NCBI GenBank assembly: GCA_026397505.1
Contig: JAPLUR010000094.1
Location: 1-34,943 of the forward strand
Length of the DNA: 34,943 nt
Direction of reading: 5' to 3'
Origin: Candidatus Zixiibacteriota bacterium
GTDB taxonomy: Bacteria > Zixibacteria > MSB-5A5 > GN15 > PGXB01
In this document: positions 8,745 through 34,943 of the stretch, in pieces
How positions within the stretch are numbered: position 1 is the stretch's first letter
Layout of the letters: each line of letters starts with the position of its first letter
Notes under the pieces: model-generated
Told to the model about the DNA's origin: nothing
The model's database searches: none
What the model saw: the letters and a program-made list of their open reading frames with translations, nothing else
Made by a program: the position numbers and the translations under genes

Positions 8745-8771
8745 ACACCTCGAGGCTGTCTCATAAGTTGG
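8745..8771. mobile_element. Solitary insertion-sequence end
   Basis: GAGGCTGTCTCATAAGTT at 8752-8769 matches 34804-34821 with one mismatch, and the similarity extends a few bases to each side. The word resembles the terminal inverted repeats of several DDE insertion sequences (GAGGCTGTC...). No transposase is attached here, so it is a remnant. Confidence 0.45.
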
Positions 8772-32156: not shown

Positions 32157-32975
32157 TTACCCACCCGGCTGTTGGTCGTTGTTCTCAACTCGGACTATTG
32201 TGACGCCGCGTGTACCTGCATATATTGACTGATATTCCCGTAGATTGCCCTCGGTGTTGTCGTTGATCTCGCGCATCTCAAACAGTGTGCGTATGATGCG
32301 TGGAATGCTCTCTTCATACCCTCTGCGGAAATCAGCATCTTCGGCGTCTGTTTTCCCTCTCCGGCCTCTAGGCGATACCATAAAGTAGCGACGGAAGAGC
32401 TCTTGAGGACCGTGCGACCGGAAATCAAGGACTAATGGGCAGCAGAACAGACATTCCAAGGGTATGGAGAGGGCAAGGATATCTCCGGACTCAATGCGTC
32501 GGCGTGCAGACCCAAAGACTAACTCGTAGGTCTCTTGAGCCGAGCAGATCGAAAGAACGATAGGTCTTGGGGGGCGCTGACATCGCTCAACGCCCTCAGT
32601 CCTGGCATACAGAACGTAAAGCGGGTAGAAATTATGCTGAGCGCTTGAATCCAAGAGAAGGTCGATCTGGTAACCCGTCTGATTTGATCGTGCCAACTCC
32701 GAATAGTGGTCCTTTCCCGGCTTTATTTTTTTCGCCTGCACTCGCATTTTGAAACAACCATTGCGAAGCAGGAACCACCAATCCCAGTCGGCACCAGAGA
32801 ATCTCGCCTCCTCATGCCTGTCGAACTCGTAATAGCGAACATCTGGAGTCTTTTGTTGAAAGAAGTCAAGGAGCCAGTCAGTGATCGACTCCTCTTTGAC
32901 TGCGGGTTGACGTTGAAGCCAACCCGCCACGTAATCATTGGCTTCTCTTGCGACAATGCCGATTGCGGTCTTCAT
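32157..32975 (-). CDS. DUF6615-like protein with a restriction-nuclease-type motif
   Basis: A 272-residue protein. The N-terminal 90 residues have the order E (KEESITDWLLDFF), EE (HEEARF), GADWDWWF, then MRVQAKKIK, resembling a PD-(D/E)XK core in which Asp63/Asp65 and Gln80/Lys82 would bind metal. GADWDWWF followed by QAKK is, as I recall it, the DUF6615 signature. The rest (about 95-230) alternates strands and helices with SLPLECLFCCP-like hydrophobic stretches and no known motif. AGAGAGG precedes the ATG. It is the second gene of a minus-strand pair, 52 bases after the gene at 33028-33789. Confidence 0.65.
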   Translation of the reverse strand: MKTAIGIVAREANDYVAGWLQRQPAVKEESITDWLLDFFQQKTPDVRYYEFDRHEEARFSGADWDWWFLLRNGCFKMRVQAKKIKPGKDHYSELARSNQTGYQIDLLLDSSAQHNFYPLYVLYARTEGVERCQRPPRPIVLSICSAQETYELVFGSARRRIESGDILALSIPLECLFCCPLVLDFRSHGPQELFRRYFMVSPRGRRGKTDAEDADFRRGYEESIPRIIRTLFEMREINDNTEGNLREYQSIYAGTRGVTIVRVENNDQQPGG

Positions 32976-33027: not shown

Positions 33028-33789
33028 TCAGCCGCCGCTATCAGCGGTCAGCTGCATTTGCATTGTGATGCCGCACAACTCTGAGGGCAGACTTGGCTCG
33101 ATTACTTTCGTATAGTACTCTGCCATGCATTTCGCCTGAACAGCAAGAGCACTGCGTTGTTCATCCTCAAGAGAACCCAGGTGATAAGCGTCAAAATCCA
33201 ACTGAGCGATGAACTGGGCCACGAAAAGTGCCCTTAGCGTACGAGCGATTTCCTCTGCTTGGTAGACTGGAAGCAGGACGTCGAGGTCAATTTCCTTTTG
33301 CCCAGCGGGCCAAGATCGCAAGGCGACCATCGCTTGTGGATTAGGATGCGCAATTGCTGACAGTTCCTGATAAAGAAATTGTCGCTGCTTTGCAAGTCTT
33401 TTGATAGCAGAACGGATGTCTATGGGCCTGAGCTGTTCACCGCGATACCACGCTTCGACAAGAGCGGGACGTTCGTGAAAAGCAGCACTTTGCCAGGCAG
33501 TTTCGCAGGCCAACCGGATGGCATTAGCCGCCTGTGAGTGCATCGACGATCTGGCCAACTGGAAGGCGGCTAGGAAATCGTGGATTACCTTGGAACAATG
33601 GAGCTTACAGGCTGCACCCAACCGGTCGTCGGCGTGAAGGTAGTGGCTCGTGGCTAGGCATGCCACCGCTGTATTAATGCCGTACTGACAAGCGAAAAGC
33701 TCGTCGTCGAAGTCCCGCTCGCATTTGCTAACCCGTTCTATGAGTAACTGGTTGAGTATCGGTAAAAATGATTTTTCTATTGTGCCCAT
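33028..33789 (-). CDS. All-helical DUF5677-like protein
   Basis: A 253-residue, almost purely helical protein. The central part (ANAIRLACETAWQSAAFHERP, AWYRGEQLRPIDIRSAIKRL, LYQELSAIAHPN) has the Arg/Glu helix, the short W-G segment, the DIR helix and the His-Pro-Asn end that recall DUF5677 proteins, a helical family often near toxins or defence genes. Assignment is by pattern only. Upstream on the minus strand is a strong promoter at 33949-33976. It is first in an operon with the DUF6615-like nuclease-motif protein, so a two-component module (helical sensor or toxin plus nuclease-like partner) is a fair inference. Confidence 0.55.
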   Translation of the reverse strand: MGTIEKSFLPILNQLLIERVSKCERDFDDELFACQYGINTAVACLATSHYLHADDRLGAACKLHCSKVIHDFLAAFQLARSSMHSQAANAIRLACETAWQSAAFHERPALVEAWYRGEQLRPIDIRSAIKRLAKQRQFLYQELSAIAHPNPQAMVALRSWPAGQKEIDLDVLLPVYQAEEIARTLRALFVAQFIAQLDFDAYHLGSLEDEQRSALAVQAKCMAEYYTKVIEPSLPSELCGITMQMQLTADSGG

Positions 33790-33913
33790 CGCGATTTATC
33801 CCCTACGCGGTATAACAATGATTATACAGCATGCATAAAACGGTAGCACAGGCTATTTCCAACTGTATAAGTACTTGCCGTGCCTTATTGTTGCGTATCT
33901 AAGCTCCTTATAG

Positions 33914-34020
33914 GATTCTTGCCTGCTTGTTATCTTGTTATGATATGAAGTATATCGCTCCCCCCGCATTTGTCAAGCAAAAAATCTGTCGGGTTTTTCA
34001 ATTCCTGCGGCGGGGAATTT
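33914..34020 (-). promoter_or_regulatory. Promoter of the two-gene module (repeat copy A)
   Basis: On the minus strand TTGACA (33976-33971) is followed after 16 bases by TATACT (33954-33949). The -10 lies inside GATAT-GAAGT-ATATC (plus strand), a perfect 5-bp inverted repeat that could be an operator. The whole ~105 bases recur at 34678-34785 at roughly 75-80% identity. The leader before the first gene of the module would be about 150 bases. Confidence 0.6.
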
Positions 34021-34174
34021 CGAGACTCCGAACTGCCTTTGGCGCATACCAATGGCAGGACCGCAAGACTTCGTCTGGGGTTCTGCCCTACGGGGCTTAC
34101 CATTGGTCTGAATGTCAAGCCCTCGGGCAGATGTGGACATCTGCCGCGCACAGCACAGGCGTACGGGTTTCGAT
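34021..34174. repeat. Palindromic intergenic element
   Basis: No gene. A perfect 9-bp hairpin GGCAGATGT-GG-ACATCTGCC (34126-34145) lies next to an inverted CCAATGG...CCATTGG pair (about 34050-34117). It resembles the hairpin-type fillers elsewhere in the window but has no close copy here. Confidence 0.5.
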
Positions 34175-34618
34175 CTAACCAGTTGGCTGTTGCGGCGGGC
34201 GAAGAGCGTACCTGAGAATGCATCCAAGTAACGTGGTGAGCATCTGCAGGATCGGAGAGATGATCACCATGAGGACGATCCATGCGATGAAGCTTGGAAG
34301 GGGCTGATACAAGATCAGGGGGATGCCGAAATTGGCAATTTTGGCCGGGGGACCTCCCAGCACCCGGAGCGCGGGAAGCCAGATCAGGGCAGTTATTAAG
34401 AGCGTGACCCCAGAAGTGAGCGCGGCGGCGCGCAGGACCGCCCTCAGGTCACCAGAAGTATACGGGCTGCGGATACCAAGAAATGCGGGAAGGAACCAGC
34501 CGACGGGAAAGCCGAGGAGAATGGCAAAAATCGGAACGCCCATACCCATGCCGACCGCGATGACATCGATAGCTACGAACATGGCGATTCGGAAGGTTCG
34601 ATTCACAAGGATGGACAT
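34175..34618 (-). CDS. Small polytopic membrane protein
   Basis: A 147-residue, highly hydrophobic protein with about four membrane helices (10-22, 26-44, 62-84, 108-134) and short loops. GGGGAGGAG precedes the ATG at 34618. No family motif recognised. It has its own promoter (34715-34742), a near copy of the one in front of the helical/nuclease-motif pair downstream, so the three genes may be co-regulated. Confidence 0.65.
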   Translation of the reverse strand: MSILVNRTFRIAMFVAIDVIAVGMGMGVPIFAILLGFPVGWFLPAFLGIRSPYTSGDLRAVLRAAALTSGVTLLITALIWLPALRVLGGPPAKIANFGIPLILYQPLPSFIAWIVLMVIISPILQMLTTLLGCILRYALRPPQQPTG

Positions 34619-34677
34619 GTGGTCTCCTCCCCTTCTTTGGTCAAGACACGGATATAGATCATATTCGTGCTGGTCTT

Positions 34678-34785
34678 ATGATTCTTGACTGCTTGTCATC
34701 TTGTTATGATATGAAGTATATCTCCCCACTACGTTTGTCAAGCGAGAATTTTGTCGTGGTTTCTCAATTCCTGACGGGAGGAGCT
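34678..34785 (-). promoter_or_regulatory. Promoter of the membrane protein gene (repeat copy B)
   Basis: On the minus strand TTGACA (34742-34737... just before the A/C-rich spacer) is followed after about 15-16 bases by TATACT (34720-34715), with the same GATAT-GAAGT-ATATC inverted repeat over the -10 as copy A at 33914-34020. Leader of about 90 bases. Confidence 0.55.
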
Positions 34786-34796
34786 TGAATGGGCGA

Positions 34797-34943
34797 ACAC
34801 TTCGAGGCTGTCCCATAAGTTAGTTTTATTGATATCGAAATTCAGGTTAAGGGGTTTGGGAGTGGATTTTGGCGTCCGCTGACCCTGAGAGTCCGAAAAT
34901 GCGTTTGCCAGCGTTCTATATGGGCCAGAATCATAGCTAAACT
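34797..34943 (-). mobile_element. Insertion-sequence end with possible transposase C-terminus
   Basis: The word GAGGCTGTCCCATAAGTT (34804-34821) matches the solitary IS end at 8752-8769 with one mismatch. On the minus strand a frame is open from the window edge for 33 codons to a TGA at 34844-34842, 20 bases short of this repeat. It reads ...MILAHIERWQTHFRTLRV... and could be the tail of the transposase of this element. I cannot name the IS family from so little. Confidence 0.4.

Follow-up and report, generated by a model that had tools for sequence, protein, structure and literature searches.

A repeated sigma70-type promoter-plus-leader block in front of two neighbouring transcription units of a Zixibacteria contig, probably a re-used promoter

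Introduction

The window analysed here, a stretch of 34,943 nucleotides making up a contig of a Candidatus Zixiibacteriota bacterium, carries near its right end two similar sequences, each lying 5' of a minus-strand transcription unit, and this raises the question of whether the two units answer to a common regulator or have come to carry copies of the same promoter. The first-pass annotation had favoured the former: it described a direct repeat (33914-34020 and 34678-34785, ~75-80% identical) with a palindrome, GATAT-N5-ATATC, laid over the -10, and took this to be the operator of a shared regulator tying a membrane protein gene to a two-gene module.

Arrangements of this general kind are familiar. 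Duplicated sigma70 promoters and the promoters of regulons have TTGACA and TATAAT-like hexamers, in the same orientation, 5' of separate transcription units, and putative mobile promoters are said to have been described by Matus-Garcia, Nijveen and van Passel in 2012 under the title 'Promoter propagation in prokaryotes'. That paper is cited in excerpts of PMC9208149 and PMC8049555, the latter of which also discusses REPINs (REP-like elements). The available excerpts of the literature on mobile or propagated promoters, G-rich spacers, phase variation and similar repeats held no description of the element considered here.

Results

The features of the region, all on the minus strand, are listed in the order in which they would be transcribed.

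34804-34943, minus strand: end of an insertion sequence (motif AACTTATGGGACAGCCTC), cut by the contig end; transposase C-terminus at about 34842-34943
34677-34782, minus strand: copy 2 of the promoter-like and leader block, 5' of the membrane-protein gene; TTGACA 34741-34736, spacer 15, TATACT 34720-34715
34708-34722, minus strand: exact palindrome GATATACTTCATATC over the -10 of copy 2, not kept in related sites
34175-34618, minus strand: P0001, 147 aa, membrane-protein-like; predicted leader of about 90 nt from copy 2
34021-34175, minus strand: REP-like, hairpin-rich cluster separating copy 1 from the membrane gene
33911-34016, minus strand: copy 1 of the promoter-like and leader block, 5' of the two-gene module; TTGACA 33976-33971, spacer 16, TATACT 33954-33949
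33942-33956, minus strand: exact palindrome GATATACTTCATATC over the -10 of copy 1, not kept in related sites
33028-33789, minus strand: P0002, 253 aa, without a family match; its start codon lies about 150 nt from where transcription from copy 1 is predicted to begin
32157-32975, minus strand: P0003, 272 aa, DUF6615 (PF20320, E 1.8e-10)

The repeat proved to be real and slightly better kept than first described, the two copies (766 bases apart from start to start) agreeing at 90 of 108 alignment columns; stricter scoring gives 87 of 103. Their local alignment scored 119, against a maximum of 25 among 1000 dinucleotide-shuffled pairs, and the best other 110-base stretch within the window reached only 26. 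The TTGACA, 15-16 base spacer and TATACT noted on the minus strand are present in both copies, which therefore fit the sigma70-type pattern of TTGACA and TATAAT-like hexamers about 15-19 bases apart. A promoter scan gave copy 1 an 11/12 match at spacing 16; in copy 2, which was read by eye, these hexamers stand at a spacing that is short and below the range of the scanner. This 15-base spacer may make copy 2 the weaker promoter. The blocks thus bear out the description of two promoter-like sequences, each 5' of a minus-strand transcription unit.

The degree of identity differed between the parts of the block: 33/42 upstream of the -35, 6/6 in the -35, 8/14 in the spacer, 15/15 in the palindrome and 28/31 in the leader that follows it. 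Conservation is thus highest over the palindrome together with about 30 bases of leader. The earlier statement that it peaks at the -10 and palindrome holds for the palindrome itself, but the leader comes close to it. The alignment stops at 33911 and 34677, before any coding sequence is reached.

It had been recognised at the outset that the repeat might be a general intergenic element. This is not the case: the 3.44-Mb genome contains just two full copies, plus one 19-base match to the flank of the -35, and a dispersed repeat of the REP or MITE kind is therefore ruled out. The cluster at 34021-34175 does resemble REP-like elements in being a dispersed hairpin repeat (parts of it recur at 23 other places in the genome, and it folds at z -5.3), whereas the promoter block is not dispersed in this genome.

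The palindrome was considered separately. The search for further sites that had been called for found no exact or one-mismatch copy of GATATACTTCATATC in the 3.44-Mb genome beyond the two in the window, but at two mismatches there were 14 more places, against 2 for a reversed control pattern. When random flanks were placed around a fixed TATACT, 13% gave a perfect palindrome overlapping it (5-base arms, loop of 3-10). Among 11 related sites in other genomes, for each of which the -10 was chosen by script, GATATACTTCATATC was found in none; three had other palindromes, with arms of 5 to 8 bases, and eight had none. Only the two window copies, then, bear this palindrome, which is common to them by descent. 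The proposed operator is not sustained by these figures: the palindrome amounts to a modest coincidence at a TATACT -10, and a shared regulator is weakly supported.

Relatives of the block itself were sought by DNA search in 60 genomes, including the window's own, and matches were obtained in 6. The longest outside the window's own genome were a 66-base match (77%, E 3.4e-7) in G024, from another family of the order, and a 68-base match (74%, E 1.5e-5) in G020, from a third; short matches were also seen in G038, G053 and G015, the last of which (L008) was dropped as not looking promoter-like. What the best relatives have in common is a -35 flanked by T-rich sequence, a spacer rich in G and a -10, and in several of them also leader letters, such as the AAGCAGG(C/T)AAGAA common to copy 1 and the G020 site. 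A sequence-only model (R1) was built from six sites and run over 132 genomes of the phylum. It recovered its six sites, placed sites of this kind in three families of the order, and added two matches near full length, G060:C46:2727-2798 (E 4.5e-10) and G057:C145:1612-1683 (E 1.2e-6), its E-values being rough throughout. It also gave weaker matches, and since a cutoff of E 0.1 yields at least one match in 52 of the 132 genomes, those above about 0.001 are probably mostly chance.

The strong sites stand 5' of different reading frames, the window's two units included. One frame begins MARFPRSEAE... (L124 and L125, truncated in L116), another is MAINKSGEGEPSNTVMAML (L117, with a remnant in L126 that has no ATG, GTG or TTG start), and behind L123 lies a 493-aa protein; a promoter sequence is thus repeated upstream of non-homologous genes. 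However, the sites of G053, G020 and G060 have gene starts and up to 250 bases in common beyond the promoter, so some of these are ordinary orthologues or paralogues and not moved promoters. For L116, L124 and L125, where up to 250 bases including the gene starts are common, the homology does not stop before the coding sequence.

The sites of family f4 (L116, L117, L118, L122 and L124-L126) have in common a further upstream block around CCCTGAGGGGCAAAACAAGTGAAATAAGTCGA, of which the window copies hold only a faint trace, and some of these sites precede a truncated or start-less reading frame. The leader of copy 1 contains AAGGAG at 33904-33909, apparently an orphan Shine-Dalgarno sequence with no start codon just behind it; at the same place the relatives L116, L117 and L124 have GGAGG, with a start codon 11-12 bases on. 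The orphan sequence would be consistent with the loss of the gene that first lay behind this promoter and its replacement by another. Neither terminal repeats nor target duplications were observed at the block. Phage and plasmid collections contained no match to it, and two patterns run against viral contigs gave 0 matches each, so that neither source is proposed as its origin.

Searches were also made with short patterns. In genome contigs GCTTGACAAATGCGGGGGG occurred at 5 places, on the G038 and G053 contigs and in Clostridia (2) and Chitinispirillia (1), and the matches in the last two groups may be chance. CTTGACAAATGCGGGG, with up to one mismatch, occurred at 10 places, against 2 for its reversed control; of these places, L009 and L014 seem to be coding, and L016 has no long G-run. 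CTTGACANNNGNGGGGG was present at 24 places, some of which, in G130 and G017, are near-duplicates, and its reversed control at 3; for CTTGACANNNCNCCCCC the figures were 15 and 7. As this last figure makes the strand preference of the G-run patterns weak, a phylum-wide G-run promoter habit is not claimed.

The genes behind the two copies were then compared across the same 132 genomes. P0001 has no Pfam match, although 3 homologues at 44-46% identity confirm it as a family; P0002 and P0003 have no useful match among solved structures, and P0002 none among plasmids. PADLOC and NCBIfam gave no match for any of the three, leaving a defence role without support from either. P0003 carries GADWDWWF...RVQAKK, with GADWEWWF...RVQAKN in the counterpart at L046, which we take to resemble the core of a PD-(D/E)XK nuclease. 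Counting the window's own genome, homologues of P0001, P0002 and P0003 were found in 4, 1 and 3 genomes, and the three sets coincide only in that genome. Apart from it, the genomes with strong promoter matches have no homologue of P0001 or P0003, and in other genomes the contigs that carry such homologues have no R1 match. The suggested tie of the two-gene module to the membrane gene thus finds no counterpart elsewhere. This argues against an old functional link among these genes but leaves room for their co-expression today; co-regulation of the window's transcription units is possible.

A second palindrome, GTATAA-N6-TTATAC, lies upstream of P0002 at 33810-33827, about 20-38 bases from its start, and contains TATAAT. 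By eye there is no good -35 for this hexamer, and the palindrome is possibly a promoter or operator closer to the two-gene module than copy 1.

Discussion

The two repeats are probably diverged copies of one sigma70-type promoter with the leader at the start of its transcript, duplicated and re-used, and belonging to a small family in this order. The layout of the family would be a T-rich flank with GCTTGACA, a G-rich spacer of 15-19 bases and a -10, followed in several members by a leader with approximately AAGATA-(A)AGCAGGYAAGAA. Such blocks would have been duplicated or transferred and now precede unrelated accessory genes, copy 2 presumably driving P0001 and copy 1 driving P0002 and P0003 through a leader of about 150 nt. 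We infer the promoter activity, the start points and the manner of copying from sequence. That diverged relatives precede unrelated genes in related bacteria points to a re-used promoter rather than to the mark of one dedicated regulator.

A regulator binding GATAT-N5-ATATC over both -10s, to repress or co-induce the membrane gene and the two-gene module, could explain why the palindrome is exact in both copies, nowhere else exact in the genome and fully kept beside a spacer at 8/14. The identity of the -10 and palindrome counts to that extent against the promoter-family reading, as a shared operator would also predict it. Yet the adjoining leader is almost as well kept, such palindromes arise by chance at TATACT in 13% of random flanks, none of the related sites has this one and the genes are not linked elsewhere, so that a dedicated regulator seems quite unlikely. 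Any shared control would then be a by-product of the shared promoter sequence, and not the work of a palindrome-binding protein; a repeat with a palindrome at the -10 does not by itself prove a shared regulator. A structured or regulatory leader RNA, with the promoter kept merely as its neighbour, is very improbable: the leader is well conserved and partly common across families, and ACAAG recurs at 8-base spacing in both copies (by eye), but there was no Rfam match up to E 0.5, neither leader folds better than its shuffled versions (z 0.03 and -0.69), and the -35 with its flank is conserved at least as widely as the leader.

The history might also be purely local, a single promoter duplication that accompanied the insertion of either the two-gene module or the membrane gene and its REP-like hairpins, the distant likeness being a common promoter style. 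The presence of exactly two full copies so close together and in the same orientation would suit this, as would the accessory genes, REP-like cluster and insertion sequence that adjoin them, and a G-run with TTGACA alone could help R1 matches in other families. We nevertheless think it unlikely, because the matches of 66 and 68 bases in other families include leader letters and R1 found near full-length sites outside its training set. The duplication in the window is modest and fairly ordinary, with possibly a wider promoter family behind it.

Among known systems, the re-used promoter block is best read as close to the putative mobile promoters: like them, it is a promoter-sized, near-identical sequence 5' of non-homologous genes with relatives in other genomes. 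Unlike them, it has only two copies, 84% identical and including the leader, and neither terminal repeats nor target duplications were seen that would speak for movement. It resembles duplicated sigma70 or regulon promoters in its hexamers, orientation and separate transcription units, but differs in having a G-rich spacer and leader letters that also occur in further families of the order. Poly-G spacers are known from phase variation of the porA type. It is conceivable, though doubtful, that a cassette of G-run-spacer promoter and leader moves among several families of the order as one piece, repeatedly capturing unrelated accessory genes, and that changes in G-run length (the spacers span about 15 to 19 bases, with runs of up to 12 G) vary promoter strength by slippage. 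The G-rich spacers allow a simple laboratory test of spacer length against promoter strength. If the promoter-family reading is true, the locus offers a compact case of promoter re-use in bacteria known here mainly from draft genomes.

The window also holds features of separate interest. The insertion sequence end at 34804, with copy 2 beginning about 20 bases downstream of it, belongs to an element with a full copy on contig C38 (DUF772 / DDE_Tnp_1_6 transposase, 18-base inverted ends), which we take to be of the IS1182 type. The DNA just outside its end is alike in three places, 34784-34804, L082 and L083 (GTTCGCCCATTCAAG, GGTCGCCCAT and GGTCGCCCGTGCAAG), which suggests that the element may have a target preference. 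A 25-base match (92%) to the end and flank lies at 8745-8769 and may be what remains of an insertion sequence of this type, and the left end of the contig (138-1613) encodes a protein of 491 aa that contains a CHAT domain (PF12770, E 1.6e-64).
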